DNA from: Candidatus Latescibacterota bacterium
GTDB taxonomy: Bacteria; JAAXHH01
NCBI GenBank assembly: GCA_022822725.1
Contig: JAJEAN010000007.1
Span: forward strand, 626,382-690,381
DNA length: 64,000 nt
Direction: 5' to 3'
Position 1 is the first letter of the stretch. The number at the start of each line of letters is the position of its first letter. Below are positions 716-56,426 of the stretch, piece by piece. The notes under the pieces were generated by a model that worked only from the letters and a program-made list of their open reading frames with translations, was not told the DNA's origin and made no database searches. A program made the translations under genes and the position numbers.

Positions 716-803
716 TACGGCTCATCCGGGGGATACGGCTCATCCGGGCCGGCGGGTTGTCATCTCGCATTCTACGCGCCGACGGCGGGTTGTCATCTCG
801 CAT
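716..803. repeat. Two direct duplications at the 3' end of the TonB receptor gene
   Basis: A 15-base word (TACGGCTCATCCGGG) occurs at 716-730 and 734-748, period 18. A 20-base word (GGCGGGTTGTCATCTCGCAT) occurs at 751-770 and 784-803, period 33. The second 20-mer copy spans the receptor stop codon (793-795), so the gene's last codons and stop have a duplicate in the intergenic gap. Confidence 0.85.
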
Positions 804-3000
804 CCGCACCGATGGGGAGGCCGAAACCCACGTACCACGTCCGGCCCGCGGCCGGCTCGAAGAAGCGGTCCCCGAAGGCGTTGGGGACGATGGAACCATT
901 GTAGCGCGTATCGAAGAGGTTGTTGACTCCGGCGAACACGACGCCACCGACCATCTCTCCATTGTAGGTGATTCCCGCTCGCACATCAACGAGGCCGTAA
1001 CCGTCGTTAACGAAGTCGGAAACGGGCTTATCGCTCCCCGGAGCGGGTCCGTTGAAGTCGTTGGCGAAATACTCCGACGTCCACTGCGCGTTCAATTCGA
1101 CGAATGCGCCATTGCCCGGGTGGGTGTAGGTGAATCCGGCGAACAGGTGATGGGACGGCACGCCGGGCACTTCGTTGTCCGACAACTGGAAGCGCGAGGG
1201 GCTTCCGTCGACCGTCCGCTCGACTTCGAAGTCGTCGAACCTGAACTGCATGCCCGTGTAGGCCATCGACAGGTTGACCGGGGCCAGGGGAGACCAGGTC
1301 AGCTTCAGTTCGACGCCCCGGTTCTGCGTTTTGCCCGCGTTGCGGAAAAAGACCTCGTCCGTCTCCGGATTGTCGATCTGGAAGGGCAGGAGCATATTGC
1401 GAATGCCGAAGGTGAAGAGGGCCGCGTCATAGGCGAACCCGGCGTCGGGCACGAATCCCTTTACGCCCGCCTCGAAGCCGCGGATCCGTTCGGGCTCGAG
1501 ATCCGGGTTGAAACCGCCGGCCTGCGTGGGCTGGTTGCTCAGTTCCGTGGTGGTCGGCGTCTGGAAGGCGGTGGAGAAATTGCCGTACACCGCCGTGAGC
1601 GGGGCGGGCCGGAACGCCACACCCAGGTGTGGACTGAACTGCGCCATGTTCCGCGTTCCCGAATCATCGGTCTGGTCACTCAGGAACCGGTCCGTCGCCT
1701 CGTACCGGAACCGGTCGTACCGTCCGCCGGCGGTGACCGAAACTTCGGGTGCAGGTGACCATTCCAGCTCCACGAAGGGGCCGAAGCCGTCGACGCCTTC
1801 CTCCTGGTCCAGCAGTTTGTCGCCGCGCGAGATCTCGTCGAAAACGCGTGCGTCGTCCAGCGTGCCCGCGAGGTCTCCCGGAATGCCGCCATTGCCGTAT
1901 TCACGCCGTTCATCGCGCTGTATCTCCAGATCCACTCCGGCCGTCATCCGCAAACCGCCGTTTCCGATCCCGCCCTCGCGGCTGTACACCCCCCGGATAC
2001 CCCCGGCCATGCGGTCCAGGTCGATGATCCGGCCCGGTATGGGATTGAACAGCGTGCGTCCCATGCCGAATACCGTGATCTCCGCTTCGGACCCGGGCGC
2101 CTCGTAACGCATGGACAGGCCGCCCTGGAACTGTCTGACCTTCTTGGACGCGCCCTGCCGCTGGACGAAGGCCCTTGCACTGGCGGGGTCCGACTCGGTC
2201 GTGGCCTTGTCGAGAGAGCTCGGGTTGTACTGGTACGGCGCGTTGTAGTAGTTGGCCACGGCCGTCACGGTCCAGGCATCGTCGATCATCCGTTTCCCTA
2301 CGGAGTTGATGCCCGTCGACCGCGCGGAGGCGTGATCGCGGAACCCATCGAACCAGAGCGTATTGAAATTAACAAGAAACCGGTTGCCACCCGATGTGCC
2401 GGCTGCCTTGCCCTGCAGGCGCCGAAGGCCATGTGAACCGGTGATGAAACGGGGCGTGACTTCGAACGGCCGGTCCGGAGCGTCTTCGGTGCGGATCAGG
2501 ATGACGCCGCCGGCCGCGTTGCCGTAAAGCGACGAACTGGGACCGCGCAGCACTTCGATCTGCCCCGCCGAGGTGAGATCGAGGTTGTTGAGCTGGGACT
2601 GGCCGTCGGCCATGGTCAGCGGAATGCCGTCCAGCACCAGCTTGACCCCGCGCACGCCGAAGGACGCACGGCTTCCCAGGCCGCGTATGCTGATCCGGTC
2701 GCCCTGCGAGACATTGTTTCGATTGTTAACGATAATCCCCGGAAGCCCACGGACGCTTTCCTCCAGGGACAGCCCCGGTTCGGCGAGCTGGATCTCGTCC
2801 CGGTCGATCCGGTCCACGGCATACGGTATGTCGAGGATCTCCCGGATGTAGCGGGTAGCGGTGACTTCAATGGGTTGAAGGACGTGATCTACGGCAACGT
2901 CGGTGGTGTCGGGTGTGGACTGCGGCCAGGCGTGGGCAAGGTGCGGATGCAATAACAGGTGCAGGAAAAGGACGCCGCAGGCTGGGAGTATCTTTTTCAT
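793..3000 (-). CDS. TonB-dependent outer-membrane receptor
   Basis: A 735-residue precursor. I start it at the ATG at 3000, which gives a signal peptide (MKKILPACGVLFLHLLL, then AHA). An upstream in-frame extension has no signal character. A TonB-box/plug region follows: IEVTATR, then LPGIIVNN, RISIRGLGSR and VLRGPSSSLYGNAAGG, all classic plug-domain motifs. The remainder is aromatic-rich alternating sequence typical of a 22-strand barrel. The barrel appears to end at TWYVGFGLPI, with a five-residue GADAR tail encoded by a sequence duplicated downstream. Such receptors import siderophores, cobalamin or other large nutrients; the substrate here is unknown. It sits 55 bases downstream of the DUF1080 gene. 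Confidence 0.93.
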   Translation of the reverse strand: MKKILPACGVLFLHLLLHPHLAHAWPQSTPDTTDVAVDHVLQPIEVTATRYIREILDIPYAVDRIDRDEIQLAEPGLSLEESVRGLPGIIVNNRNNVSQGDRISIRGLGSRASFGVRGVKLVLDGIPLTMADGQSQLNNLDLTSAGQIEVLRGPSSSLYGNAAGGVILIRTEDAPDRPFEVTPRFITGSHGLRRLQGKAAGTSGGNRFLVNFNTLWFDGFRDHASARSTGINSVGKRMIDDAWTVTAVANYYNAPYQYNPSSLDKATTESDPASARAFVQRQGASKKVRQFQGGLSMRYEAPGSEAEITVFGMGRTLFNPIPGRIIDLDRMAGGIRGVYSREGGIGNGGLRMTAGVDLEIQRDERREYGNGGIPGDLAGTLDDARVFDEISRGDKLLDQEEGVDGFGPFVELEWSPAPEVSVTAGGRYDRFRYEATDRFLSDQTDDSGTRNMAQFSPHLGVAFRPAPLTAVYGNFSTAFQTPTTTELSNQPTQAGGFNPDLEPERIRGFEAGVKGFVPDAGFAYDAALFTFGIRNMLLPFQIDNPETDEVFFRNAGKTQNRGVELKLTWSPLAPVNLSMAYTGMQFRFDDFEVERTVDGSPSRFQLSDNEVPGVPSHHLFAGFTYTHPGNGAFVELNAQWTSEYFANDFNGPAPGSDKPVSDFVNDGYGLVDVRAGITYNGEMVGGVVFAGVNNLFDTRYNGSIVPNAFGDRFFEPAAGRTWYVGFGLPIGADAR

Positions 3001-3055
3001 CGTGAACCGATTCGATGCGGCGGGACGGACGGGTGGGTCCGCCCCGCGGTGTACA

Positions 3056-7741: not shown

Positions 7742-8910
7742 GGCTTGGCTTCCATGGGCGTGACGAGCCTGCCGATGCCCTCGATCTCCATTTCCACTAT
7801 GTCGCCCGGCATGAGGTATTCGGGCGGATTCCGGGCGCGGCCTACACCGTCCGGCGTGCCCGTGGCGATCACGTCGCCCGGATAGAGGGTCTGGACCGAG
7901 GTCAGATACCGGATCATGTACGCTTCATTGTAGATCATGTAACTGGTGTTGCTGTCCTGCTTTATCACGCCGTTGACCCAGGTCTTTATGTCGAGGTCGT
8001 CATGCTGGATGAATTCCTTCGGCACGATGTAGGGCCCGAAGGGGGCGGCGCGGTCGCTGCTCTTGCCGTTGAACCAGTTCGGCCCGGGGAACATGCGGTT
8101 GATCGGTTTCAGTCCGTCGCCGCCCCGGCGGCTTACGTCGAACAGTATGCTGTAGCCGAATACATAGTCGTGGGCGTTCTCCAGGGTCAGGTCCAGCGCC
8201 GGCCTGCCGATGATGATGGCCAGTTCGGCTTCCCAGTCGATGTTCACGTCCTTCGGCACGTAGTAGGGTTCGCCCGGATCGATGATGGTGGATCTTGGCG
8301 ACTTGGCGAAGAAATAAGGTTCTTCGGCGTCCACGTCCACTTCCAGGGCGGTGAAACCCGCGCCCCCGATGGCCGATTCTTCCATCTCGTCCGCGTGGGC
8401 CCGGTAATTCGCAGCGGCCGCCAGCAGGTTGTAGGGGTACTTGATCGGCGCCTTGAAGGAGACGTTCTCCGGATCGAATACGAAGGCCAGGTCCGGGTTC
8501 GACAGGCGGTTTTCCGCGCCCATGTAGTTCGCTATCGTGTACATGCGGTTGGAAACGGCGTCGTACTGCTCGATCAGCGCACGCATTTCCTTCGGAATGG
8601 ATACCGTCGGCAATCCAAGCTGACGGGTGACGTAGGCATTCGCCTCGTGCAGGTCCATCAGTCTCTCCTGACCCGGTTGGCCCGTCTGGTCCGGTTGGCC
8701 CGTCCGGACCGGTTGGCCCGCCTGGTCCGGTTGGCCCGTCCGGACCGCCATGCCGATGCGGATGGTTCCCGTGGCCTCGAAGGTTGCCAGTTTGAAGGGC
8801 GTGTCCGGCTGGTCCGAAACCTGGGACCGGGCCGTGCCAGGTGCAGTCAGCCATAGTGCGGCGCCAATCAACAGGACGGCGGCCGGCAGAAATCGTATCC
8901 GGTACGACAT
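7738..8910 (-). CDS. Exported fumarylacetoacetate-hydrolase (FAH) family protein
   Basis: I start at the ATG at 8910 because a strong GAGGAGG lies about 9 bases upstream; this gives 390 residues. Residues 1-30 look like a cleavable signal peptide (MSYRIRFLPAAVLLIGAALW then TARSQ). The C-terminal half is a typical FAH domain: AEEPYFFAKSPRSTI, DWEAELAIIIGRPA, FGYSILFDVSRR and VIATGTPDGVG, a fold that hydrolyses or decarboxylates C-C bonds of 2,4-diketoacids using a divalent metal. Family members are normally cytoplasmic, so export is unusual. Residues about 56-82 are a Gly-Gln-Pro tandem repeat placed where a beta-hairpin turn is expected (RIGMAV before it, RLMDLHEAN after it). The gene overlaps the LVIVD lipoprotein gene by 4 bases. 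Confidence 0.87.
   Translation of the reverse strand: MSYRIRFLPAAVLLIGAALWLTAPGTARSQVSDQPDTPFKLATFEATGTIRIGMAVRTGQPDQAGQPVRTGQPDQTGQPGQERLMDLHEANAYVTRQLGLPTVSIPKEMRALIEQYDAVSNRMYTIANYMGAENRLSNPDLAFVFDPENVSFKAPIKYPYNLLAAAANYRAHADEMEESAIGGAGFTALEVDVDAEEPYFFAKSPRSTIIDPGEPYYVPKDVNIDWEAELAIIIGRPALDLTLENAHDYVFGYSILFDVSRRGGDGLKPINRMFPGPNWFNGKSSDRAAPFGPYIVPKEFIQHDDLDIKTWVNGVIKQDSNTSYMIYNEAYMIRYLTSVQTLYPGDVIATGTPDGVGRARNPPEYLMPGDIVEMEIEGIGRLVTPMEAKP
8673..8744. repeat. 18-bp in-frame tandem array inside the FAH gene
   Basis: Four consecutive 18-base units starting CCGGTTGGCCCG. The last six bases vary alternately (TCTGGT, TCCGGA, CCTGGT, TCCGGA), giving a 36-base higher-order period. Read on the minus strand they encode six-residue units such as GQPVRT and GQPDQA. 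The length preserves the reading frame. Confidence 0.95.
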
Positions 8911-10310: not shown

Positions 10311-10363
10311 CGGGATACCCGTTACCCGGGATTCCTGTTGCACGGGATTCCGGTTACCCGGGT
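10311..10363. repeat. Imperfect 21-bp duplication between sulfatase and APH-family genes
   Basis: Two similar 21-base words, ACGGGATACCCGTTACCCGGG (first 20 bases at 10311-10330) and a near copy at 10343-10363 differing at two or three positions, period 32. The adjoining sulfatase 3' end also repeats TAGTCTAT. Confidence 0.6.
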
Positions 10364-11901: not shown

Positions 11902-12909
11902 TCAGCCGTCGATCCCGCAGTCATCCAGGTAACGGTCCACCGACGCCTTCAGCGGTAAATCTCCCCCCATCACCTGTTCTGCATAGTCGCGGTACCAGCC
12001 CGGAATCAGGGACCGGGCCTCACGGAATTCGGCGAGGATGAGCCTTGCGAAGTCCCCGCTGTCCTCCAGGTAGCCGGATTCGTAAAAGTGCGCGATCGCC
12101 CGTTCGCGGTCGTACTCGAGCCGGATGATCTCCGCTTTCCACGCACCGGATTCGAACGTCATCTGTGCGTAGGCTGCACGGGGATCCCGGTCGAATGGCG
12201 CGCCCACCGCGCCCACGTTGACGACAAGGGCATCGTCCACGGTCCGGATCAGGGGCCGGTGCGTGTGACCCACCACCAGCACCTTCGGCGCCGGTGCGAT
12301 TTTCTCGCGCAGCGCAGCTTCGGTATCATCGGGGAAGATCCCCTTGCGGTCTCCCAGCATGGAAGCGTGCACCATGCGGAATTCGTTCCCCGCCTCATCG
12401 GTCATGGACCACTGAAAGGGCAGCGCTTCGAGGCGTTCGACCAGCCCGTCCGGACTATCCGGGCTATCCGGACTATCCGGGCAGTCGGCGCTATCCATGC
12501 GGTCCGGGCTATCCGGGCTATCCGGGCAGCCGGCGCTATCCATGCGGTCCGGGCTATCCGGGCCGGCCTGACCAGTCCGGTCGGCCTGCCCGGCCTGGCC
12601 AGTCTGCCCGGCCAGTTGATCGTACGTCCACTTGGCATGCCGGATGATCTCGAATTCAGGACCGTGGTCGGGCAGGTTACCCTTTCCGTATTTCAGCACG
12701 TACCGCTCGTGGTTCCCACAGATCATGCCCCAGTCTTCCGCCATGGCACGACGCACAACCCGTTCGGTGCACGCCCGGGGATTCGGTCCCCGGTTGATGA
12801 TGTCGCCCGCGCACAGGACCCGGTCTGGTCGCCACCGGTCGATGTGGTCCAGGACGGTTTCCAATGCGTCCAGGTTGCTGTGCACGTCGGCGAAAACGGC
12901 GATCTTCAT
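11902..12909 (-). CDS. Calcineurin-like metallophosphoesterase with a repeat insertion
   Basis: A 335-residue YfcE/MJ0936-like phosphoesterase. Metal motifs are in order: FADVHSN, CAGDIINRGPNP, ICGNHERY and LVVGHTHRP, providing the Asp, His and Asn ligands of a dinuclear centre. Residues about 101-155 are a tandem Gly-Gln/Ser-Pro-Asp repeat that interrupts the fold between TYDQLAG and LVERLEALPFQW. Without it the length would be near 280, normal for the family with a C-terminal extension. Members hydrolyse phosphodiesters or nucleotides; the substrate is unknown. It starts 2 bases after the DMFase-like gene stops and probably shares its transcript. Confidence 0.9.
   Translation of the reverse strand: MKIAVFADVHSNLDALETVLDHIDRWRPDRVLCAGDIINRGPNPRACTERVVRRAMAEDWGMICGNHERYVLKYGKGNLPDHGPEFEIIRHAKWTYDQLAGQTGQAGQADRTGQAGPDSPDRMDSAGCPDSPDSPDRMDSADCPDSPDSPDSPDGLVERLEALPFQWSMTDEAGNEFRMVHASMLGDRKGIFPDDTEAALREKIAPAPKVLVVGHTHRPLIRTVDDALVVNVGAVGAPFDRDPRAAYAQMTFESGAWKAEIIRLEYDRERAIAHFYESGYLEDSGDFARLILAEFREARSLIPGWYRDYAEQVMGGDLPLKASVDRYLDDCGIDG
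12451..12612. repeat. 9-bp and 45-bp in-frame tandem array inside the metallophosphoesterase gene
   Basis: The basic word is CGGGCTATC (9 bases; Ser-Pro-Asp on the minus strand). Two near-identical 45-base units lie at 12460-12504 and 12505-12549, differing at two positions, with a third partial copy from 12550. The right part (12562-12612) shifts to a degenerate GGCCTG/GGCCAGTC pattern encoding Gly-Gln-Ala/Thr. The total keeps the reading frame. Confidence 0.95.
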
Positions 12910-16178: not shown

Positions 16179-17156
16179 CTACCTGTACACTTCGGCCAGG
16201 AGTTCGTAGGACCGCAACCGGGCTTCGAAATCGTGGGTGATGGTTACGGCCATGACCTCATCGGCTCCGAACTGGCCGGCAAGCCGGTCGATGGTGTCCC
16301 GGACCTGGTCCGGACTGCCCACGGCCGCCAGGCGGAACTTGTCGTCCAGAAAGGCTTTCTCGGCTTCACTGAACCGGTGCTTTTCCGCTTCCTCCACGGT
16401 AGGTACCACGTTGCTGGGCTTGCCCGAAGCGAAGCGGGCGAAGAGCAGGTCGCGGCTGAGAGCGAGACGCCTGGCCTCCGCCTCGGTGTCGGCGCAGATG
16501 ACGTTGATCGCGATGCAGGCCTCGGGCTGCGGCGACTGGGTGGAGGGCTCGAAATAGTGCCGGTAATATTCGAGGATGCGCGGGTCGATATTGCTGTTGA
16601 TGAACAGGGCGAAATTGTAGGGCAGTCCCAGCCTGGCGGCGAGCATCGCGCTTTCGGGACTGGACCCGAGCATCCAGACGGGAGGCGGAGACTGGATGGG
16701 CGGTGTGACCCGCGGCTCGAAGTCCCTGTTCTGCAGGATCTCCACCAGCTGGGTGACGAGTTCGGGGAACTGCTCGAAACGGGGTCCCGCGCCTGGCGAC
16801 AGCATCCGCGCCGTCTTCATGTCGCCGCCGGGCGCCCGTCCGACCCCCAGGTCGACCCGGTCCGGGTAGAGATTCGTGAGGACGGCGAAGCTCTCGGCGA
16901 CTTTGAAGGCGCTGTAATAGGGCAGCATGACACCTCCGGATCCGATCCGCATGTCCTCCGTGGCGGCCCCGATGGCTGCGAGCAGCACTTCGGGCGAACT
17001 GCCGGCCAGGCAGTGGGCGTTGTGGTGTTCGGACACCCAGAAACGCCGGTATCCCAGCCGTTCGGCCGACCGGGCGAGGGTGAGCGTCTCCTGGAAGGCC
17101 TGAACGGCCGTTACGCCTTCACGAATTGGAGATTGGTCTAGTATGGAAAGATTCAT
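16179..17156 (-). CDS. LLM-class (luciferase-like) flavin-dependent oxidoreductase
   Basis: A 325-residue bacterial-luciferase-like monooxygenase of the MsnO8/YhbW type. It begins MNLSILDQSPIREG and has the conserved YRRFWVSEHHN, GSGGVMLPYYSAFKVAE, RVDLGVGRAPG and WMLGSSPESAMLAARLG. The TIM-barrel enzyme uses reduced FMN and oxygen; the substrate is unknown. It is downstream of the DUF6785 membrane protein on the same strand, separated by a short gap that contains a 17-base tandem repeat. An AAGGAG ribosome binding site directly follows that repeat and precedes the ATG. Confidence 0.93.
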   Translation of the reverse strand: MNLSILDQSPIREGVTAVQAFQETLTLARSAERLGYRRFWVSEHHNAHCLAGSSPEVLLAAIGAATEDMRIGSGGVMLPYYSAFKVAESFAVLTNLYPDRVDLGVGRAPGGDMKTARMLSPGAGPRFEQFPELVTQLVEILQNRDFEPRVTPPIQSPPPVWMLGSSPESAMLAARLGLPYNFALFINSNIDPRILEYYRHYFEPSTQSPQPEACIAINVICADTEAEARRLALSRDLLFARFASGKPSNVVPTVEEAEKHRFSEAEKAFLDDKFRLAAVGSPDQVRDTIDRLAGQFGADEVMAVTITHDFEARLRSYELLAEVYR

Positions 17157-17178
17157 GATGGTTTGACTGCTCCTTTAC

Positions 17179-17229
17179 CTGCCGTCCACGACTACCTGCT
17201 GTCCACGACTACCAGCCGTCCACGACGTG
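17179..17229. repeat. 17-bp tandem repeat starting at a gene's last codons
   Basis: Three 17-base units (CTGCCGTCCACGACTAC and variants) at 17179-17195, 17196-17212 and 17213-17229. The third unit spans the final codons (VVDGW) and stop of the DUF6785 gene; the other two are copies of that end placed in the intergenic gap before the next ribosome binding site. Confidence 0.92.
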
Positions 17230-19191: not shown

Positions 19192-19255
19192 GATAGCAAG
19201 GCGATGTACGTTCGGACCGTGGCACGAGTTGCCTGGTTCACCGGTCAGATCCGTT

Positions 19256-20176
19256 TCACGCGGATTCTGCGCCCGTGGTTTCTGCGCCCTTGGATTCTGC
19301 GCCCGCGCTTTCCGCACCCGTGCTTTCCGCACCCGTGGTTTCCGCACCTGCGCATTCTACGCACGCCCGAAGCTTCGCCAGTCCTTTCTGTGCCGTGGCC
19401 ACCGGGCCTTCGGCCCAGTACGCGGGGTTGAACAGCTCCAGTGACAACATGCCCCGGTAATCCTGCCGTACCAGGCTGGCGACGATCTCGTCCCACGGCG
19501 CTACGCCGTCTCCGGGATAGACCCGGTGCTCGTCTTCGATGTCCGCGCGGGGCGGGTCGGAAGGATAGTCGTTCACGTGGACCAGGCCCAGGCGCCCCGG
19601 ATCGAGGTAGTCCATCCCGCGCTGGTGGCCGCTCCCCTTGTACATGTGAAAGATGTCGGTCAGCAGCCGGGTGTCGCGCACGCCGCTTTCCGCAGCCACG
19701 AGCAGGGCTTCTCCCACCGTGCCCAGCGTCCGGGACACGCCCCAGAACTCCAGCAGGGGTTTAGGGGTGTAATCCGACACGGCGTCCGTCAGTTCGGCGA
19801 ATCTCCGCGCGACGGAAAAAAGGTCTACATCCCGGTCGTGGATCCCCTTCGGGGCCGTGGCTACGAAAGGGCAATCCAGGACCTGCGCCATCCGGAAGCA
19901 ACGTCTGGCCTCTTCCAGGCCCCGGGCATGGCGGTCGGCTTCGGGAACCGCCCATTCGAAGAACGCGATCAGGTTCACGATCCGGATCCCGCGACGCGCG
20001 GCGCGGTCCCGCAACTGTTCCAGCGTCCCGCCGCCTTCGATCCAGGCATCGATCTCCTCGACCCAGGGTTCGATACCGTCATACCCGGCGTCGGCGGCGA
20101 TATCCACGTATTCCAGCACGGAAACGCCAGGTGAACGGATCGTGCTGGTGTTCAGGCAGTATTCAAATAGACCCAT
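19256..20176 (-). CDS. Sugar phosphate isomerase/epimerase-like TIM-barrel protein with repeat tail
   Basis: I choose the ATG at 20176 because AAGGGG lies 8 bases upstream (a GTG 9 bases earlier is possible). The 306-residue protein is an AP-endonuclease-2/xylose-isomerase-like barrel: YVDIAADAGYDGIEPWVEE, PLLEFWGV, RLLTDIFHMYKG, LGLVHVNDYPSDPP and YRGMLSLELFNPAYW. The Glu, Asp, His and Glu residues in these strands form the usual metal site. Members isomerise or epimerise sugars and inositols, with DUF6785 as a possible transporter neighbour downstream. The last 30 residues are six copies of a five-residue GAE(S/T)x unit after the conserved fold ends, probably a disordered tail. Confidence 0.9.
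   Translation of the reverse strand: MGLFEYCLNTSTIRSPGVSVLEYVDIAADAGYDGIEPWVEEIDAWIEGGGTLEQLRDRAARRGIRIVNLIAFFEWAVPEADRHARGLEEARRCFRMAQVLDCPFVATAPKGIHDRDVDLFSVARRFAELTDAVSDYTPKPLLEFWGVSRTLGTVGEALLVAAESGVRDTRLLTDIFHMYKGSGHQRGMDYLDPGRLGLVHVNDYPSDPPRADIEDEHRVYPGDGVAPWDEIVASLVRQDYRGMLSLELFNPAYWAEGPVATAQKGLAKLRACVECAGAETTGAESTGAESAGAESKGAETTGAESA
19259..19348. repeat. 15-bp in-frame tandem array at the 3' end of the TIM-barrel gene
   Basis: Six 15-base units immediately before the stop codon at 19256-19258. On the minus strand each reads GGx GCx GAA (A/T)CC/AGC xxG, encoding Gly-Ala-Glu-(Ser/Thr)-x. Units differ mainly at third positions and in the fifth codon. Confidence 0.95.
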
Positions 20177-20225: not shown

Positions 20226-20281
20226 AAGGACGGCGCGGAAGACGCGTTTGAAAGGACGGCGCGGAAGACGCGTTTGAAAGG
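20226..20281. repeat. Perfect 26-bp tandem duplication in a divergent intergenic region
   Basis: Units 20226-20251 and 20252-20277 are identical (start AAGGACGGCGCGGAAGACGC), followed by AAGG as a third start. It lies about 50 bases before the start of the minus-strand TIM-barrel gene, within its probable leader. The rest of 20177-20399 is A+T-richer and may carry both divergent promoters, but no hexamer pair there is convincing. Confidence 0.95.
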
Positions 20282-24854: not shown

Positions 24855-24931
24855 CGTGTATCCTTCACGTATCCTCCGCGTATCTACCGCGATTCCTCCG
24901 CGCATCTACGGTGCATCTACCGTGTATCTAC
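24855..24931. repeat. 11-bp tandem array between SDR and TPR genes
   Basis: Seven imperfect 11-base units of the form CGYGTATCTAC (24855-24865, 24866-24876, and so on to 24931). It fills nearly the whole gap between the SDR stop (24940) and the TPR start (24830). The unit length is not a multiple of 3, fitting a non-coding position. Confidence 0.9.
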
Positions 24932-24939
24932 CTTATTCC

Positions 24940-26811: not shown

Positions 26812-26905
26812 AATCCCCGCTGCGCGTGCTATCGGTTCCCTTTTACGCTAGCTTAATCCCCGCTCCGCGTACTTTCGGTTCCCTTTTTGCAACCGCCAAA
26901 TCCCC
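26812..26905. repeat. About 40-bp imperfect tandem repeat upstream of the alcohol dehydrogenase gene
   Basis: The phrase AATCCCCGCTSCGCGT, followed by TCGGTTCCCTTTT, occurs twice about 40 bases apart, with a third partial copy (AATCCCCGCTGCCCGAC). It starts within 10 bases of the dehydrogenase start codon at 26806 and thus occupies its leader. The remaining bases to 26985 show no gene. Confidence 0.85.
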
Positions 26906-26985
26906 GCTGCCCGACCGCCCTCTGAATGGGCGGTTTGAATATAGGGCGCGGGGTATCTATTGACAAGATCAAACACATTAAGCCG

Positions 26986-27126: not shown

Positions 27127-27202
27127 TTCCCGGTCTAAAGCCCGTCTATAGCCCGTCTCTCACTTTTTCCCCGCTTCCCCGCACATCAGCAGGAGGGTCC
27201 TC

Positions 27203-29619: not shown

Positions 29620-32600
29620 TCAGCCGTGTTCCGTGGATTTCAGCTCCTCAAGCAACGTGTCGACCGTCAGACTGACGGCGGTCGCCGACTGCAACGTCTC
29701 GACCGGAACCGACACGTGCAGCCCCGTCTCGATCCAGTTTCTCAATTCCACGGCCATGAGGGAATCCACGCCCAGGCTGCGCCACGTCTGCACGAGATCC
29801 ACGCTCCCCGGATCCAACTCTACAATCCGGCAGATGGCATCGGTCACGAATTCCTCGATGTAGGCGCGAAGTTTGTCTGTAGGAAGCGCACTCGCATCGG
29901 ACTTCGATAACGGGGGAATCGACCGCGGTGCCAGCGTCTGATCACCGGGATTCGGCTCCAGCAAACGGACCAGAAGCGAATCCGCCGCAGGCGCCGTCGT
30001 GGGGATCACGCCCACGCGATGGATGTTGCGGCGCAATATCCGGTCAAGTGTCTCGCCGGCCGCGTCGGGCGGGATCAGCCGCAGTCCCTGCCGCCTGAGA
30101 CGATCGATGGCGCGCTCATCGGTCATCATCCCCGTACCTTCCCAGGGTCCCCAGTTGATCGTCGTCACAGGCAGGTTTTCTTTGCGCCGGAGATCCGCGA
30201 GTCCGTCAAGAAAGGCGTTCGCGGCGGCATAGGGCGCCTGTCCCGCCGTACCGATCACGGAAGCCGCCGACGAAAAGAGAACGAAGAGATCCAGATCCAG
30301 ATCCCTGGTCAATTCATGCAGATGCCACGCGCCGGTCGTTTTGGGTTCGAGTACCCGGCGGAACCGGCACGCGTCCTGAGTAATCAGAATGCCGTCGTCC
30401 AGCACGCCGGCCGCATGGAAGACGCCCCTAAACTGCGCATCCTCCCTGTCCAGATCCGAAAAGAGCCGCGCCATCGCCTCGTAATCCGCCACATCGGCCT
30501 GAACATACCTTACTTTGCCGGTGGGATCGGCATCAGGCACCGCCTCCTCGCTCTTCCGCCGGCCCGTAACGATTACCTGGCCGGCGCCGCGGTCGAGCAG
30601 CCAGTCCGTCAGATATCGACCGATCCCGCCCGTGCCGCCTGTGACGAGGTAGGTCTCATCCGGCCGGATGACCGGGTCGTCATCGCCCAGAGCCACTGGA
30701 ACGGTCGATCCGTCATCCACGAGCACCAGTTTGCCCGTATGCCGGGCCTGGGACATGAGCCGGAAGGCATCCCGCGCCTCGGCCATCGGATAGGTCCGGT
30801 GCGGCAGAGGACGGATCCTGCCATCCCGGGCCATGTCGACGATCTTACGCAGCAAGTTTCCTGCGCGATCAGGCTGTTCCGCGATGAACTGGGCGAGATC
30901 GATGGGATGAAAGGATCGATTGTGATCGAACTGGTTAAGGTCGATGAGACCGTGGTTCAACACATCGGTTTTGCCGATCTCGATGAAACGCCCGTGGCTT
31001 GCGAGCACGGACAGCGAAGCCGTCATGGCGGGCCCGGACAGCGTGTTGAGGACGATATCCATTCCCTTCCCATCCGTCTTCGCCAGGATCTTTTCTGCAA
31101 AGTCCAGCGTGCGGGAATCCATTACGTGAGCCACACCCATCTCCCGCAGTAAGGCCCGCTTTTCGGGTGATCCCGCCGTCGCGAATATCTCGGCTTCCAC
31201 GTTCAGTGCAAGTTGCAGGGCGGCCAGGCCCACACCGCCGGTCGCGTTATGGATCAGGACGCGGTCCCCAGTGGACATCCCACCCCGTACCACGAGACCC
31301 AGGTATGCCGTCAGGAAGGCCACAGGCAGCGTGGCGGCTTCTTCGATACCCAGGTGATCCGGCTTCTGGACCACCAGGGCGGCCTTCGCGGTCACGCAAC
31401 CCGCCATGGTTGCAGACATCATGCCCATGATCGTATCGCCAATTTCTATCGAGTTCACCTTGTCGCCCCGCGCCGTGACTTCTCCCACACATTCCCAGCC
31501 AAAGGACGGCGGACGCCTCGACGGGTCTCCCAGCATGCCGAGGGCGGTCAGCACATCCCGGAAATTCAATCCTGCCGCCCGCACGCGGATGGCCACCTCA
31601 TCCGGTGCCGGCTGAGGCACCTGTTCCGATACAAAATGGAGATTGTCGATCGAACCCGGCACGGACTGAGAGAGCCTGTAACTTGTTTTGGCATCGGCAG
31701 TTACGGGTACGGTTTTCGCTTCGCATCGCCCCAGGTCGAAGGGAACGAGACGGCGAACGTGGAGGTCAGTTCCCCGTAGCGAGATTTCACCAGGAAGCGT
31801 GTCCATGGCCACGATCGCAGCGAGTCGTTCTACATTGATGTCGGCTATCTCGCCGCTTCTGGCTGTCTCACCGGTCCTCGCCGTCTCACCGGTCCCGGCC
31901 GTCTCACCGATCCCGAGCGTCTCGCCGATCCCGGCCGTCTCGCCGCTTTCGGCCGTCGCGTAGTTTCCGGCCGTCTCGCCGCTTTCGGCAGGAAGGTCTA
32001 TCAATGTGCAGTCGAGTTCAGGATGTTCGCGCATGGCGACTCGTCCGCATCCCCAGATCGTCGCCAGTTCAGGTATCGCCCCGTCACCCGCGACCACAGA
32101 CTGCGCTCCCGCTGTAATCAATCTCAGTCGGCACGGAATCTCCGGACAGTCCAGCACCGCCCGGATCAGCTCAAAGGACTCCAGTGCTGGTCCCGTATGG
32201 CGGCCGGACTTCCGGTTGTCTGCTCCCGTCCAGATACCTGCGACAGCAACTAAATCTCCGGCAGCGGGTTCAACCGATCTCAGTCTTTCGAGGAGCAGAT
32301 CAGTCGCGGGCGACTTGTGATCGCCGGCGTGGTCGATGAATTCACTTTTTCCACCGTGTTGTGACAAGGCATCGACCAGACCGCCGCCGAGTCGTTTGTC
32401 GTCCGAGAGCACGAACCAGTGGGAAATTGTAGTGGGTTCAGCGTGAGTCTCCGGAGATGGTGCGTTTACCCACGTTTCCCGGTACAGTCCGTGTGGGTTA
32501 TGGATGCCGTGCGTGCCCGTGCCTGCCCGACCCAGACCCGCGCCGGCCGGAGACAGGCCAACGCCTTCCAAGGCAACTACGGGAAGACCCGTTTCATCGA

Positions 32601-35600
32601 CGATGCATACGTCGGCCAGCAGGCCGCTGCGTTCTGACGCATCCCGCAACCTGGCATAGCCGACGAGGGCTTCATGCGGTCCCGGAAGCCTGTGCAGCAC
32701 TGTGTTTGCCACGCCCACCGGCAGATAAGGACCGTCATCTGGTACGAGCATGAGCAGGGCCTGCAGGCCGGCATCGAGCACACCGGGGTGCAGGCGGTAA
32801 GAGGCCTGGTCATCATCCCGGACGGCCAGGAAGGCCAGCGCCTCTCGATCGGAGTAAACGAGTTCGTCGATCCGGCGGAACGCAGGCCCGTACTGAAACC
32901 CCAGATCGGCCGCGCGTTCGTAGAACCGGCGGCTTGTGGTCCGGCGGTCGCAACGGGATCTGACGGCTTCCAGATCGACGCGTTCGGCCATCTCATCCAT
33001 GCGGGCACGTTCGGCTCGCAGGTTCAGCAGCCAGCCGGAACCCTTGTCTTGCGATTCCGACCTGGAGGACAGGATGAACCGGTTCTGCCTGCGTACGATC
33101 TGGACGAGATGTGCGCCGGTTTCGGGCAATAACAGCGGGTTCAGGAGTTTAAGATCCTTGAAAGCGACCGGAATGTCCCCCTCGTCGAACGTCTCGAAGA
33201 GCATTTCGATCTGGCCCGCAAGGGGCATGATCGTACGGTTCCGTATGGCGTGATCCGCCAGCATCGGGTGGGTGTCCAGGCCGATCGTCCTTTCCCACAC
33301 GGTGGTATCTGGGTCCACGGACGATTCTACGCCCCTGCCGATCAATGGGTGCGGGTACCGACCGCTCGATTGATCCGCCATCCCGTCCAGCCAGTACCGT
33401 TCCTTCTTCCAGGGATATGCCGGCAATGGGACGGGCGTGCGAGGTCGATCTGCCAGACGTTCCCAGCGAATACCATGGCCTTGGACGTAACATTTCGCCA
33501 CGGCTTCGAGCAGGACTTCCCGCGCTCCGTGATCGCGACGCAACGAGGCGAGCGAGTAGCCCATCCGGTTCAGATGCGCCAGGTTCTCGTAAATGGCCGT
33601 TGACAGCACGGGATGGGGACCGATCTGGAGGAAAAGCGGCGTTGCGCCATCGGGAATCTGCTTGAACGAATGCGCGAAAGTCCGATCGAAGCGGACCGGA
33701 CTCCGGATGTTGCGCCACCAGTGGTCCGCCGTTAATTCCGTCCCTGCCACCGGAGCGCCGGTGACCGTGGACAACAGTGGTACCCGGATCTTAACGGGCG
33801 ACAGATCAGCCAGAGCCGCCAGGAATTCGCCGCGGATACCGTCCATTTGGCCGCTATGATAGGCCATTTCCGTATGTAATTGCTGACAGAAGAGCTGCCG
33901 GCCATCCATCTCGGCCTGCAGCCGATCGATTTCCGCTGTCTCCCCGGATATGGTTACGGAAACCGGGCTATTGACCGCGGCGACTGCCAGGCGGTCTTCG
34001 AAGGGCTCGATGGCCTCTTCCGCATCTTCCGGCGACAGACCCACGGCCAGCATCTCTCCCTGGCCCTGCAATGCCTTCTGCAGCCTGCTGCGCGCCCAGA
34101 TAATGCGAACACCCTCATCCAGGGTGAGTACGCCCGCGACGCAGGCGCCGGTGATTTCTCCGACACTGTGGCCAATGACGTACCGCGGTTCAATACCGAT
34201 GGACTGCCACCAGGATGCCAGGGCCCATTGCAGCGCCATGTTGGCGGGTTGGGCGACTTCGACGTCGGTGATTCGCTCCCCGGTTATGCCGTCCATCGTC
34301 TTTTCTATAATCGACTCTCCGGAAACCTCTGAGAAAAGGCGGTCGAACTCATCCAGCGCCTCGCGAAAAACCGGCTCGTCGTGATACAGTTCCTGGCCCA
34401 TGCCGTACCACTGGGGTCCCATTCCGGTGAAGACAAAGACAACGGGCGCTTGTTCCGCATCGGCCCGCGCAGTCTCGAACCGCTCGGGGAGGCCGCCGCC
34501 GCTGAACTGTTCAAGGCCCTCGGCGGCTTCCCCGGTCTGCCCGAAGACCAGTGCCAGGCGGTGATCGAGATGGGAACGCTGCAGGGCGAGTGCGGACGCA
34601 AGATCGCCGGGAGGCGTGCCGGGGCGGTCACGGAGCAGCGAAGCCGTATCCGATGCCTTTTGGTTCAGAGCGGCGGCGCTGTGGGCGGATAGGACCAGAA
34701 GTTGGGGAGTCCGCTGGGTGGTCACTTCGCGCTGGGCGGTCACTTCGCGCTGGTCGGATGCACTACGCTGACCAGATGCACTGCGCTGACCGGATACACT
34801 GCGCTGCCGGGACGCACCGCGTGAGCTGTGCTCTTCGGCTTCGACCGGGTCGCGATCTGTTCGTGCGCCCGCGGTATACCCGACGGATTCAGCGTCTGGC
34901 GGCGATCCAAGCACGACGTGGGCGTTGGCGCCGCCGAATCCGAAGGAATTCACGCCGGCAAGGGCGGGACCTGGAATGCTGACCGGCTCGGTGGCCACCG
35001 TCAGCCCAAGCGCTTCGAAGGGAATGTCGGGGTTCGGTTGATTGAAGTGCAGGGAGGGCGGCAGGATGCCGTGTTTGAGCGCCAGCGCCGTCTTGATGAG
35101 CCCGGCGACGCCGGCCGCCGCCTCGGTGTGGCCGATATTGGTCTTCACCGAGCCGATCATGCAACCGGTTGCGCCCGTGCCGCGCGTGGCCCGTCCGATG
35201 GCCATCGCTTCAATGGGATCACCCGTGGGCGTTCCCGTTCCATGGGCTTCCACGAAGGCGAGTTGAGCGGCGCTTACGCCCCCGGCGCCGGCCGCCGCCT
35301 CGATGACGGCTTCCTGTGCGCTTTGTCCCGGGACCGTCAAACCTCGGCTGCGCCCGTCCTGGTTAATCGCGGATCCGTGGATGGCCGCGTAGATCGCATC
35401 GCCGTCATCCACCGCTTCGGATAGCCGTTTCAGCACGACGATGCCCGCGCCGTCACTGCGGCCGTAACCGTTCGCCCCCAGGTCGAAGGCCCTGCAGCGC
35501 CCGTCCGGCGACAGCATCCGTGCTTGCTCGAATCCGCGCGTCGTCTGGGGCGTCAGAAGCAGATTGGCGCCACCGGCGAGTGCGGCCGTGCACGTCCCGG

Positions 35601-36159: not shown

Positions 36160-37066
36160 GGCTCGCGGTCCTTCGATAGGTCCAGTGGGCGTTTGCGTAC
36201 CGGGTGCGGACCAACGACTCGGCTGCGCGCCGCTCGTCGGCGTCCAGCACGTCCGTTCGGCCTTCCACGTTCAGGCGATCAAGCATCGAACGGGTCAGGC
36301 GGTCGGTCCATTCCTCGAAGGATGGCAGATCGGGGATCAATTCGGCAACGGAGACAGTCCGCTGGTCCAGCAGCCGGGCGATGGTCTCCCGGCGTTCCGG
36401 ATCACGGGCGGGCATCAGCAGGGGGAGCCGGCGGTGTCCCGGTCCCAGAAGCAGGGATCCATGTTGCAGCACAACCCCGCGGGAGCGGCGCTGGGCGCTG
36501 CCGGCCAGCTTCCTGCCGCCCGCAGTGATCTCGTAACGTCCGATGGCCGTGAAGCATACGTCGTCATTGTTTCCCGCGCCGCAATGTGCTTCCAACGACA
36601 TCTCGGCCGGTATACCGAATTGCTTCAGCGTTTCGACCAGTGCTTCGCTCACCGCGCGGAGCATCACGCCGGAACGGCTGCCCAGCGCGGGATGGGATTC
36701 CGGCGCCACCAGGCTGTAGGCTAATTCCTGGTCGTGCAGCACCGCGCGCCCCCCGGTGATCCGACGGACCAGTTCGATGCCGTAACGTTCGCATTGGCCG
36801 GGATCGATCTCGCTGTCCAACTGCTGCCCGTATCCGATGGACACAGCGGGCGGGCGCCACGAATAGATGCGCAGCGTCATCATCTCCGCATCCCGCCGGC
36901 TCGCGTCCCGCCGACCCGCATCCCGCCGGCTCGCGTCCCGCCGACCTGCATCACGTCGGCTCCTGTCCCGTCGGCTCCCGTTCCGCCGGCAAGCGTCCAG
37001 CAGCGCTTCGTCCACGGCCATGTTGTACGCGGCGGAACATCCGGGCGTGGAAAGTACGCGAATCAT
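36149..37066 (-). CDS. Lipoate/octanoyl transferase-family protein, LipM-like
   Basis: A 305-residue protein of the biotin/lipoyl ligase fold. The N-terminal AAYNMAVDEALLDA is interrupted by a 35-residue Arg-Arg-Asp-Ala-Ser repeat (about 27-61), after which the conserved LRIYSWRPPAVSIGYGQ resumes. RRITGGRAVLHDQELAYSLV and VCFTAIGRYEITAGGRKLAGSAQRR follow; Cys171 and Lys186 match the positions used by LipM octanoyltransferases, which transfer octanoate from acyl-ACP to lipoyl domains. Lipoate-protein ligase is the alternative. Its start overlaps the rnc stop by 4 bases, and its end overlaps the PKS start by 11, so the three genes are translationally linked. Confidence 0.85.
   Translation of the reverse strand: MIRVLSTPGCSAAYNMAVDEALLDACRRNGSRRDRSRRDAGRRDASRRDAGRRDASRRDAEMMTLRIYSWRPPAVSIGYGQQLDSEIDPGQCERYGIELVRRITGGRAVLHDQELAYSLVAPESHPALGSRSGVMLRAVSEALVETLKQFGIPAEMSLEAHCGAGNNDDVCFTAIGRYEITAGGRKLAGSAQRRSRGVVLQHGSLLLGPGHRRLPLLMPARDPERRETIARLLDQRTVSVAELIPDLPSFEEWTDRLTRSMLDRLNVEGRTDVLDADERRAAESLVRTRYANAHWTYRRTASHVR
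36891..36995. repeat. 15-bp in-frame array near the 5' end of lipM-like gene
   Basis: Seven 15-base units (TCCCGCCGGCTCGCG / TCCCGCCGACCCGCA and variants). The first four alternate, giving a 30-base higher-order period. On the minus strand they encode Arg-Arg-Asp-Ala-(Ser/Gly). Confidence 0.95.
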
Positions 37067-48774: not shown

Positions 48775-48796
48775 GCGAGCTACCTTTGATCGTATT

Positions 48797-48881
48797 CGGA
48801 CCGGATGACTGGATACGGACCGGATAACCGGTTTCGGACCGGTTGATCGAATTCGGACCGGTTGACCGGATTCGGACCGGA
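48797..48881. repeat. 19-bp tandem array in the leader of the binding-protein gene
   Basis: Four 19-base units each beginning CGGACCGG (48797, 48816, 48835, 48854) plus a partial fifth at 48873. They start 22 bases upstream of the start codon. The unit is not a multiple of 3. Confidence 0.93.
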
Positions 48882-48999: not shown

Positions 49000-49062
49000 C
49001 CGGGTCAATAGAAAAGCGCAGGGCGGTCAGGCCGGGTCAATAGAAAAGCGCAGGGCGGTCAG
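49000..49062. repeat. 32-bp tandem duplication in the divergent promoter region
   Basis: A 31-base word starting CCGGGTCAATAGAAAAGCGC occurs at 49000 and 49032 without differences. On the minus strand each copy contains TATTGACC, a possible -35 element. Confidence 0.92.
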
Positions 49063-49072
49063 ACCGCGTCTC

Positions 49073-49101
49073 TTGACACCGGGGATGGGGGTGGCTAGGT
49101 T
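49073..49101 (+). promoter_or_regulatory. Candidate promoter of the APC permease gene
   Basis: TTGACA (49073-49078), 17-base spacer, TAGGTT (49096-49101). Same hexamers and spacing as the tRNA-Arg promoter. The permease ATG is 90 bases downstream. Confidence 0.55.
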
Positions 49102-49145
49102 AGTGGCGATCCCTCCCGCTCACGCAAGCCATTGCTTGAACCACG

Positions 49146-49190
49146 CCAGGCAGTCCCGAGCCAGGCATTCCCGAGCCAGGCAGTCCAGAC
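49146..49190. repeat. 15-bp tandem repeat abutting the permease start codon
   Basis: Three 15-base units (CCAGGCAGTCCCGAG, CCAGGCATTCCCGAG, CCAGGCAGTCCAGAC) end one base before the ATG at 49192. They occupy the place where a ribosome binding site would be; no Shine-Dalgarno sequence is visible. Confidence 0.93.
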
Positions 49191-50763: not shown

Positions 50764-51756
50764 ATGAGCTACCAGCTGACGGACAGTTTCGGTCGAACGA
50801 TCAACAACCTGCGGATATCCGTAACGGACCAGTGCAATTTCCGTTGTATCTACTGCATGCCCGAAGAGGGGATGATCTTCCAGCCGCGTGCAGAGATCCT
50901 GACTTTCGAGGAAATCACACGTTTCGTCGGGATCGTTACCGGGCTGGGCATCTCCAAGCTGCGGCTGACCGGCGGTGAACCGACCGTTCGCAAGGATCTT
51001 CCCGTGCTGGTTCGCATGCTGGCCGATCTTCCCGGCGTCCGGGACATGGCCATGACGACCAACGGGTTCCTGCTCAAGAAGATGTCCCGCGGCCTGCGTG
51101 AGGCGGGACTGCCCCGGATCAACGTCAGCCTGGATACGCTGGACCAGGAGAAGTTCAAGCAGATGACCCGTCGCGACGTCCTGCGCAAGGTACTCGACGG
51201 GCTGGAGGAGGCGACCGGGCATTTCAAGCTTCCGATCAAGATCAACGTGGTCGCCATGAAGGGTTATACCGAGGACGAACTCCTCGATTTCGCGAAACTG
51301 GCGCGTACGGGTCCGTACCAGGTGCGTTTCATCGAGTTCATGCCGCTGGACGCGGACCGTTCCTGGACTCGAGACCAGGTGCTGGACGGCGCCGAGATCA
51401 TCGAACGGATCGGCGCGCAGTGGCCCCTGGACGCCGTGAAGCGGCCCGACCAGCGGGAACCTGCCGACCTGTTCCGGTTCCGGGACGGCCAGGGCGAGAT
51501 CGGCCTCATCGCGTCGGTCAGCGAACCCTTTTGCGGCAGTTGCAACCGGATCCGCATCACGGCCGACGGAAAGCTTCGGACCTGCCTGTTCTCCATCAAC
51601 GAAACCGATATCAAGGCCCTGCTGCGGGGCGGTGCCTCGGACGCCGAGATCGCCGAGACGGTCATCGAGGCGGTGCGGAACAAGGAACCGGGACATCACA
51701 TCAACGAACCTGATTTCGTCCAGCCGGAACGGACCATGTCCTCCATCGGCGGATAG
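50764..51756 (+). CDS. moaA: GTP 3',8-cyclase
   Basis: A 330-residue radical SAM enzyme for the first step of molybdenum cofactor synthesis. The N-terminal cluster is CNFRCIYCMPEEG (CxxxCxxC). The C-terminal substrate cluster is PFCGSCNRIRITADGKLRTC. The chain ends in GG (RTMSSIGG), the pair needed for SAM-dependent activity in MoaA. KLRLTGGEPTVRKDL binds SAM. It is followed after 12 bases by the MoeB-like gene. Other mo-cofactor genes (moaC, moaD, moaE) are not in the window. Confidence 0.96.
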   Translation: MSYQLTDSFGRTINNLRISVTDQCNFRCIYCMPEEGMIFQPRAEILTFEEITRFVGIVTGLGISKLRLTGGEPTVRKDLPVLVRMLADLPGVRDMAMTTNGFLLKKMSRGLREAGLPRINVSLDTLDQEKFKQMTRRDVLRKVLDGLEEATGHFKLPIKINVVAMKGYTEDELLDFAKLARTGPYQVRFIEFMPLDADRSWTRDQVLDGAEIIERIGAQWPLDAVKRPDQREPADLFRFRDGQGEIGLIASVSEPFCGSCNRIRITADGKLRTCLFSINETDIKALLRGGASDAEIAETVIEAVRNKEPGHHINEPDFVQPERTMSSIGG

Positions 51757-51768
51757 CAGGAGATCATC

Positions 51769-53100: not shown

Positions 53101-53112
53101 GGAATCCTCACC

Positions 53113-54003: not shown

Positions 54004-54102
54004 ACCGGGACGATGCGCGCGGTTCTACGGCGTGGTTGTATGCGGCAAGGCTGCCAGGTAGCGTGCGGTTCGACAGGTAACCGGGTACCTTGAAGGAGAT
54101 CG

Positions 54103-54576
54103 ATGCGTTTTAGCCTGCTGGTGACCTTCTTCGGCATCGGCGCGGTCCTGATGGCGGTCGCCGTGGTCTTCATGTACGGGACGGATGGATCGGGCGAACC
54201 CCGGACACCGGCCGAACACGGCCGAAGGCTGTTTCGCCTCCAGGGCTGCGCTTCCTGCCACGCCATCGGCGGGGGGATCTCCCGGGGACCCGACTTGGCC
54301 GGGCTGATACCCCGGCTTTCCGCTCGCTTGACCGACACGGCCTACCGAAGTCACCTGGATTCGCTTCGGGTGGCCAGACCGGATGCGCACGCCTTTTTCG
54401 CGCCGAGGTACGAGCGGGTACTGGGCACGCAGGGCGAAGAGCGGATCAAGGTCTGGTTCGCGGAGCATCTTCGGAATCCCCGGTTCGATCACTTCACGGG
54501 ACTGATGCCCGACTACGATCATTTGACGGAAGAACAGGTGGATCGGCTGACGGCCTTCATACTTACGCTCAAGTAG
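54103..54576 (+). CDS. Membrane-anchored class I cytochrome c
   Basis: A 157-residue monoheme cytochrome. It has an N-terminal hydrophobic anchor ([21 protein letters not shown]), the heme motif [11 protein letters not shown] near residue 47, and a likely distal Met in [18 protein letters not shown], followed by the usual C-terminal helix (TAFILTLK). It transfers electrons at the outer face of the inner membrane. Its gene neighbours give no clear partner. AAGGAG lies 7 bases before the ATG. Confidence 0.9.
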
Positions 54577-54646
54577 TAACCGGCCGAGACGGACCGATGC
54601 CCAAGACGGACGGTATAAATCATCACTCGCGGAACGGAGACCGAAC

Positions 54647-56323
54647 ATGACAGACGATGGAAAAAGACACAGCAGGACGATCACCGACGGACCCTCCCGG
54701 GCCCCGGCCCGGGCCATGCTCAAGGCTTCGGGGTTCACCGACGCGGACCTGTCCCGGCCGATCATCGGGATCGCCAACACCTGGATCGAAATCGGCCCGT
54801 GCACTTACCACCTGCGCGACCTGGCCGAATACGTGAAGGAGGGCGTGCGGGAGGCCGGCGGCACGCCCATGGAGTTCAACACCGTCTCCATCTCCGACGG
54901 GATCACCATGGGCAGTCAGGGCATGAAGGCCTCGCTGGTAAGCCGCGAGGTGATCGCCGATTCCATCGAGCTGGTCACGATCGGGAACATGTTCGACGGG
55001 CTCATCGCCCTGTCCGGCTGCGACAAGACGATACCGGGCACCGTCATGGCCCTCGGACGGGTGAACGTGCCGTCCCTGATGCTCTACGGCGGCTCGATCA
55101 TGCCCGGCAGCTTTCAGCAGCACGACGTCACCATCCAGGACGTCTTCGAGGCGGTCGGCGCCCACGCCTCGGGCAAGATGACCGACCTGGAACTCAAGGA
55201 CATGGAAGATCACGCCTGTCCGGGCGCCGGCGCCTGCGGCGGCCAGTTCACGGCCAACACCATGGCCATCGCCTTCGAGATGCTGGGGATCTCGCCCATC
55301 GGCAGCGCAAGCGTTCCCGCCACCCACCCGGACAAGCCGGAGGTGGGCCGTGAGTGCGGACGCCAGGTCATGGAACTGGTGCGCAGGAACCTCTGCCCGC
55401 GGGACATCATGACCCGGGAGGCCTTTGAAAACGCCATCGCCGCCGTGCTCACCACCGGCGGATCGACCAATAGCGTGCTGCACCTGCTGGCCGTCGCCCA
55501 GGAGTCGGGCGTGGACCTTCAGATCGAGGATTTCGACCGGATCAGCGAGAAGACGCCGCTGCTCGCCGACCTGAAACCGGGCGGCCGTTTCGTCGCCAAT
55601 GACCTGTTCGCGGCGGGCGGCAACCGGCTCGTGGCCAAGCGCATGCTGGAGGGCGGCATGCTGCACGAGAATGCGATCACCGTATCGGGCCGGACCATCG
55701 CGGAAGAAGCCGCCGACGCGTCCGAGACGCCGGGCCAGGTGGTCGTTCGGGATCTCGGGGATCCGCTCAAATCCACCGGCGGTTACGTGATCCTCAAGGG
55801 GAACCTGGCTCCCGAAGGCTGCGTTTTGAAGGTCGCGGGCCACGAGAAGACCCATCACCGCGGACTGGCGCGGGTCTTCGACTGCGAGGAAGACGCCATG
55901 GCGGAGGTGATGAACGGGGGGATCCGGCCCAATGACGTGGTGGTCATCCGCTACGAGGGACCGAAGGGCGGACCGGGCATGCGGGAAATGCTGGCCGTCA
56001 CGGGCGCCCTCGTCGGCCGGGGCCTGGGAGAATCGGTTGCCCTGATGACCGATGGCCGTTTTTCCGGCGCAACCCACGGATTCATGGTCGGGCACGTGGC
56101 GCCCGAAGCCGCGGTGCGCGGCCCCATCGCCGCGCTGCGAGACGGCGATATCGTAGTATTCGACGTGGCGTCCCGGCGCCTGGACGTGGAGCTGTCCGAC
56201 GAGGCCATCGATGAACGGCTGGCCGACTGGTCCGAGCGGGCCTCCCTTTTCGGAGACGGCGTCATGACCAAGTACGCCCGGCTCGTCTCATCGGCGGCCA
56301 GGGGTGCGGTCACCAGAGCCTGA
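54647..56323 (+). CDS. ilvD: Dihydroxy-acid dehydratase
   Basis: A 558-residue Fe-S enzyme of branched-chain amino acid synthesis that converts dihydroxyisovalerate and dihydroxymethylvalerate to the 2-keto acids. Family motifs: [36 protein letters not shown] (cluster Cys), [17 protein letters not shown] (cluster Cys), [12 protein letters not shown] and [22 protein letters not shown]. The length is normal. It stands apart from other ilv genes; none is in the window. Confidence 0.97.
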
Positions 56324-56394
56324 CCGACGCCAGTTCCGTTCGCCGGCCTGTTGTGTTGGATGCAGCTGCCGACTGAAAGTGTAGCCGGCAAGAA

Positions 56395-56426
56395 CCTGAT
56401 CACCTGATCACAGGATCACAGGATCC
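56395..56426. repeat. 8-bp tandem repeat beginning at the arginase stop codon
   Basis: Four 8-base units, CCTGATCA, CCTGATCA, CAGGATCA and CAGGATCC. The last two include the final codons and stop (56416-56418) of the minus-strand arginase gene; the first two extend into the gap before ilvD. Confidence 0.85.

Follow-up and report, generated by a model that had tools for sequence, protein, structure and literature searches.

Abundant locus-unique tandem repeats in a genus of Candidatus Latescibacterota and their probable origin by microhomology-mediated slippage

How does a bacterial chromosome come to be studded, both between its genes and within them, with short tandem repeats that share no common sequence? 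The question is raised by a 64,000-nucleotide stretch of DNA (the window) that occupies positions 626382-690381 (G000:C9:626382-690381) of a 2.54-Mb contig in the 3.8-Mb metagenome-assembled genome of a Candidatus Latescibacterota bacterium (genome G000), for which the isolate names of its relatives and the Latescibacterota literature (PMC12993501) suggest a sponge-associated source. A first-pass annotation, made from the sequence alone, had listed some 16 arrays or duplications over 56 kb of this window, and nearly all of these were found again by Tandem Repeats Finder (TRF) and direct inspection (table 1). Here, we compare these arrays with shuffled sequence, with the rest of the genome and with congeneric (same-genus) genomes, and we consider it probable that they arise by slippage at microhomologies during replication, with ordinary purifying selection as the filter; this would be a diffuse mutational process and not an element.

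An array was defined by a TRF score of at least 50 and a period of at least 6, with a score of at least 80 marking a stricter class. Genes were called with a purpose-written codon-model gene finder, which gave 49 genes in the window (88% coding), and in the 20 shuffles codons were kept in genes and dinucleotides between them. The window holds 15 arrays, against 0.75 on average and never more than 3 in the shuffles; in the stricter class there are 10 against none. A further 400 kb taken from elsewhere in the genome contained 115 arrays, against 5.25 after shuffling. Window and other stretches together form a 464-kb sample, with a coding density of 85% and intact genes, that contains 130 arrays (28 per 100 kb and 1.96% of the bases), 70 of which score at least 80. 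Short, locally made tandem repeats are about 20-30 times more frequent in G000 than chance allows, and they reach 87 per 100 kb between genes vs 13 per 100 kb within them. Hence, the local duplication process that had been proposed for the whole chromosome passes the comparison with shuffled sequence of equal composition, and it extends across the entire sample and into the congeners.

The first-pass annotation had also called the process lineage-wide, which proved correct for the genus and not beyond it. Array density in the congeners, G003, G006 and G009 being left out of these figures, ranges from 8.1 (G007) to 30 (G001, 80 kb only) per 100 kb, but G021 of the same family and G012 of the same order are nearly array-free, with 0.9 and 1.9 per 100 kb respectively. 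G019, of the same family or order, has 12.5 per 100 kb, mainly with 7-8-bp units. Among the controls Escherichia coli has 2 arrays per 100 kb, the pSymB replicon of Sinorhizobium meliloti 4 and pHG1 of Cupriavidus necator 6; gene calls are rough in the small control sets (coding fractions 0.4-0.6), so that only total densities are used there. What distinguishes the genus is its intergenic density, which is 25-96 per 100 kb, where the controls and the domain-level genomes have 0-28. G011 of the same order (L124-L127, L158-L160) bears intergenic arrays of another class, with heptad periods of 7/14/21 bp; these reach 25.9 per 100 kb and few of them score 80 or more.

The units of the arrays are mutually unrelated: only 3 of 8385 unit pairs are alike, and of 99 units only 1 recurs at another place in the sample. 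Each array thus has its own unit, as had been noted at the outset, and a dispersed element was rejected on these counts. In the G000 sample the periods range from 7 to 81 bp and peak broadly at 15-21 bp, the arrays are short (87% below 100 bp, median 59 bp) and most are degenerate, with a median match of 85%. Intergenic units are GC-rich (0.652 vs a background of 0.525). CCGG-type words occur 26 times in them vs an expectation, uncorrected for GC, of 10.5, but the units are GC-rich overall, so that no duplication motif is claimed.

Comparison with five congeners, in which 91-97% of the window is aligned and colinear at 83.0-84.7% identity, reveals turnover. Each comparison contains 45-50 length changes of at least 9 bp, and 31-43% of these touch an array, vs 3% of random positions and 11-13% of random positions taken from intergenic DNA only. 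A first gap test, in which each insert was matched to adjacent sequence of equal length, gave only 7-16% simple duplications; such events are masked by multi-copy inserts and by gaps forced in diverged DNA, and it was replaced by this clustering of length changes at arrays. At orthologous arrays copy number differs between congeners (~84.5% identity), and the repeats that occupy the same linkers vary in number or in unit from species to species. The variation between relatives at the same loci that had been proposed as a check was thus seen among the congeners. For example, a linker in the FAA-hydrolase gene measures 30, 18, 18, 24, 12 and 6 residues across six genomes, the phosphoesterase insert 60 residues in G000 vs 42, 21, 24, 33 and 6 in five congeners, and one polyketide-synthase linker 51 residues in G000 vs 6-10. 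Nonetheless, the idea that the process steadily inserts new peptide segments is not supported as a claim of net growth: 45 six-way orthologous proteins add up to 17,489 residues in G000 vs 17,113-17,568 in the congeners, and therefore gain is roughly balanced by loss or is limited to a few proteins. Intergenic DNA is longer in G000 than in each congener (19-24 sites longer in G000 vs 5-9 longer in the congener).

These comparisons also bear on the suspicion that the repeats are errors of assembly or copies of a mobile or dispersed family. The genome is indeed a metagenome assembly, and repeats are a known cause of assembly error (PMC6868369; PMC9879509). However, the units are unrelated, most of the arrays are short and the genes stay open through them, and separately assembled congeners carry arrays at orthologous sites with other copy numbers. 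An assembly artefact is unlikely, and artefact and mobile family taken together have, in our judgment, only a very slight chance of being the explanation.

Within genes the period is a multiple of three (3n) in 49 of 53 arrays of G000, against 14 of 39 strictly intergenic arrays, which is the chance level. Arrays that span a stop codon gave 4 of 11 and those in the open 5' extension of a gene, which are a mix of true N-termini and untranslated DNA, 18 of 27; an apparent 3n excess among the intergenic arrays disappeared once the latter were set apart. The pooled congeners gave 59/64 in genes, 22/47 between genes, 4/19 at stop codons and 24/38 in open 5' extensions, and the net in-gene length changes against the five congeners are multiples of three in 62 of 67 comparisons. 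Among the four in-gene exceptions of G000, the one at 51346-51388 is neither a recent duplication nor a true exception of frame. The claim that coding copies are kept only when frame-neutral is borne out by these numbers, but to treat it as a special rule was an over-reading. It is what purifying selection predicts in any genome and no special device is needed. The same is found elsewhere: all six in-gene periods of S. meliloti pSymB are multiples of three, as are all repeats in the open reading frames (ORFs) of Borg elements, where the proportion between genes is 14-38% (PMC9879509).

Selection appears to act on site as well as on frame. Pfam scans of 30 array-bearing proteins and of the window's proteins covered some 35 arrays; by a count made by eye, each of these, with about 2 exceptions, lies clear of the Pfam domains or forms an insert in one, in agreement with the initial view that in-gene arrays lie at linkers, loops and termini. 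Tails or positions between domains are occupied in a multi-S1-domain protein, ScpB, LpxB, the polyketide-synthase (PKS) linkers and a PdxA fusion; inserts that make the domain envelope longer than the profile are found in the BacA family, the UvrD C-domain, aldose epimerase, amidase, phosphoesterase and mannitol dehydrogenase. Two short arrays, in an oligo_HPY region and an amino-acid permease helix, resemble natural sequence. MutS offers a further case (G000:C9:2431000-2437500, L078; relatives L079-L091): a Gly/Asp/Ala-rich linker is expanded between the ATPase core and the QLSLF motif of an otherwise intact protein, and it is longer in the subclade of G000, G001, G002, G005, G008 and G010 than in G007, G020, G009 and G003, although no causal link to repeat density is claimed. 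Q, D, G, T, S, A and E are abundant in the in-gene arrays and W, Y, F, M, I and L scarce, and disorder-promoting residues make up 84% of the array residues vs 63%.

Such a composition, and the filling of the same linkers with repeats again and again in different species, as reported and argued for Borgs (PMC9879509), might indicate that the repeats themselves are selected, with disordered linkers or regulatory arrays being favored and the symbiont proteome diversified. Yet density peaks in intergenic DNA, where most arrays share no sequence; recurrence at linkers is expected from tolerated sites alone; and the summed protein length is flat while the units differ freely between species. We regard selection for the repeats as improbable.

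The origin of the arrays is indicated by perfect duplications. Those with a period of at least 12 have on average 4.4 extra matched bases in G000 and 3.9 in the congeners, vs 0.76 in a simulated null of blunt duplication, and 23 of 34 have at least 3 such bases, vs 6.7% in the null. Such an excess match is what slippage or annealing at short direct repeats leaves behind, in contrast to blunt or staggered-end fill-in. At two loci the ancestral state can be read from single-copy congeners. At the site of the 32-bp duplication the single copy of G008 reads CCGGGTC, 25 bases, CCGGGTC, and a slip between the 7-mers gives the exact 32-bp unit; past the tRNA-Arg gene the single-copy congeners read GTCT, seven bases, GTCT, and a slip gives the 11-bp unit, the spacing here being read from the alignment. 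That slippage and not recombination is the joining step we infer. Chance direct repeats of ~3-9 bp, lying 9-50 bp apart, would allow slippage during replication or repair to duplicate the unique sequence between them. Once two copies are present, further slippage in the register of the unit could expand or contract the array, which point mutations would afterward degrade. Duplications would arise everywhere and in genes be kept only where the unit is a multiple of three and the site a loop, linker or tail, the outcome being disordered peptide inserts that differ between species. The 32-bp element of the first locus (49000-49110) lies just upstream of a promoter-like TTGACA ... TAGGTT, and G002 seems to have expanded it independently.

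Why the arrays are so abundant in this genus is a separate matter. Flap-nuclease (Rad27/FEN1) mutants produce duplications of tens of bp with short flanking direct repeats. In bacteria the flap nuclease corresponds to the PolA 5' nuclease domain, which each of the 12 genomes tested here possesses (12 of 12). MutS and MutL of G000 scored above the family cut-off in a profile search and have open frames, and RecJ is present throughout the genomes tested. Loss of mismatch repair, of RecJ or of the flap nuclease is excluded as the cause by gene content only, and Ku end-joining as the maker of the duplications was rejected, with a Ku gene in none of 11 genomes. As a tentative proposal, a heritable trait of replication or repair in this one sponge-associated genus, other than these losses, could raise the rate of 9-50-bp microhomology duplications on the bacterial chromosome, so that the disordered linkers of core enzymes (MutS, the multi-S1-domain protein, a UvrD-type helicase, the BacA-family protein and LpxB) would be continually rewritten.

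Several observations weigh against slippage at a raised rate as a peculiarity of this genus. No repair defect that would explain the rate was found among MutS, MutL, RecJ and PolA with its 5' nuclease domain, all of which are present. Some perfect runs sit within longer degenerate arrays, which inflates the microhomology count, and a raised rate, as opposed to weaker removal alone, is inferred from congeners at ~84.5% identity. Furthermore, the pRHL1 plasmid of Rhodococcus jostii and the megaplasmid of Cupriavidus metallidurans, with 16 and 18 arrays per 100 kb (50 kb each), come near to the congener densities; their arrays, like those of pSymB and pHG1, lie mainly in genes where the gene calls permit judging. 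It could thus be argued that duplications occur at an ordinary rate and persist because a small effective population size in a host-associated lineage, or a tolerance of excess DNA, lets the copies remain. That no loss was found among the repair genes examined accords with this, as do the degenerate state of most arrays, which makes them long-lived, and an intergenic density six times the genic one. Against it stand the strong purifying selection on frame, the intact genes and the coding density, the scarcity of arrays in the related G021 (whose lifestyle might differ), and the frequency of young perfect duplications (7.8 per 100 kb in the G000 sample), which points to a continuing supply. Relaxed selection by itself we find doubtful; a mixture of a raised slippage rate and relaxed removal is favored.

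The closest known parallel is the repeats of Borgs (PMC9879509), which share with those described here units unique to each locus (~18-21 bp in Borgs) both in and between genes, a 3n rule in ORFs but not between genes, disorder-promoting amino-acid repeats, flanking partial repeats and rapid turnover between relatives at ~83% identity. However, Borg arrays are perfect whereas ours are degenerate: perfect arrays of at least 3 units and at least 50 nt number 1 in the 464 kb, or 2.2 per Mb vs ~56 per Mb from the Borg table. Borg units are A-rich, whereas the intergenic units here are GC-rich (65% vs 52.5%; A alone not counted). Lastly, Borg arrays are carried by linear extrachromosomal elements whose host chromosomes lack them, whereas the window's contig, which bears the MutS, MutL, RecJ and PolA genes, is bacterial chromosome and no such element. 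With three defining features failing, we do not class the arrays as Borg-type and place G000 among the repeat-rich prokaryotic genomes. The survey of Subirana and Messeguer (PMC6749651) describes a species-specific abundance of short local satellites, many of them in genes with 3n units, with a median of 0-3 per Mb and ~23 in the highest bacterial chromosomes; a rough re-implementation of its criterion gives 21.6 per Mb for G000 (the counter is approximate), where more than 4 per Mb counts as repeat-rich. The survey reports neither turnover at orthologous sites nor microhomology, and the table consulted lists no Latescibacterota. Bacillus repeats (PMC8161180) likewise have variable unit sequences and many arrays per genome, but there the unit length is constant, at 52 or 20-21 nt. 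Multi-base duplications in rad27 strains are cited in PMC7817679.

The genus thus offers a counterpart of the Borg phenomenon on a bacterial chromosome, with several colinear congeners at 83-85% DNA identity in which the birth of repeats from single-copy sequence, the requirement for microhomology and the selection on frame and site can be counted. It also advises caution, in that where enzymes of this group differ in length or contain low-complexity inserts, these should be read as mutational by-products before they are read as functional features.

Table 1. Tandem arrays and duplications of the window (window coordinates)
Position	Strand	Array	Location	Congeners and remarks
677..803	.	three adjoining two-copy duplications, spacing 13, 18, 33 bp	intergenic	18 + 33 bp pair at 716-803
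8673..8747	-	18/36-bp array, TGQPDQ-type repeat	N-terminal part of FAA-hydrolase-family gene	
10311..10362	.	16 bp x 3.2	intergenic	five congeners: 4-26 bp instead of 58-74 bp
12458..12563	-	9/45-bp array	insert in calcineurin-like phosphoesterase gene	unrelated array or none
17176..17226	.	17 bp x 3	gene end	single copy in G005
19262..19362	-	15/30-bp array	C-terminal tail of AP-endonuclease/xylose-isomerase-like TIM-barrel gene, past Pfam domain	
20226..20281	.	perfect 26-bp duplication, 2.15 copies, 4 extra matching bases	intergenic	absent from congeners
24868..24932	.	11-bp array	intergenic	
26812..26913	.	43/44-bp array, three copies	intergenic	missed by TRF
27133..27158	.	11-bp duplication	directly past tRNA-Arg gene	single copy in four congeners; GTCT flanks, 11-bp spacing
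31848..31983	-	18 bp x 7.6	polyketide-synthase linker ahead of enoylreductase	five congeners: 7-32 bp
34712..34821	-	two adjoining 18-bp arrays	polyketide-synthase linker between ketosynthase and acyltransferase	
36886..36998	-	15/30-bp array	open N-terminal extension/5' end of lipoyl-ligase-type gene	four congeners: equal unit period, other copy number
48794..48881	.	19 bp x 4.6	intergenic	
49000..49070	.	32-bp duplication	conserved upstream element	single copy in G005 and G008; CCGGGTC direct repeat, 32-bp spacing
49145..49186	.	15-bp array	immediately ahead of next gene	
51346..51388	+	weak 17-bp match, score 51	in gene	equal length in all five congeners
56394..56425	.	8-bp array	intergenic	9-bp arrays at the site

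Some of the genes concerned deserve mention in their own right. The window encodes a single-module PKS (KS-AT-DH-ER-KR-ACP, 2179 residues, 29620-36159), in whose inter-domain linkers most of the window's in-gene length variation is concentrated. Elsewhere, the gene of a BacA-family membrane protein (L059:14495-15469) has two in-domain repeat inserts, one of them the histidine/threonine/aspartate run HTDHTDHTD, and that of a two-domain TPP-enzyme/POR oxidoreductase (L055:13222-14574) is split by a collagen-like GANGATG repeat. Finally, the window's DUF6785/DUF6784 membrane-type protein (17209-19347) is one of 17 paralogues in G000, and the congeners searched have 13-16.

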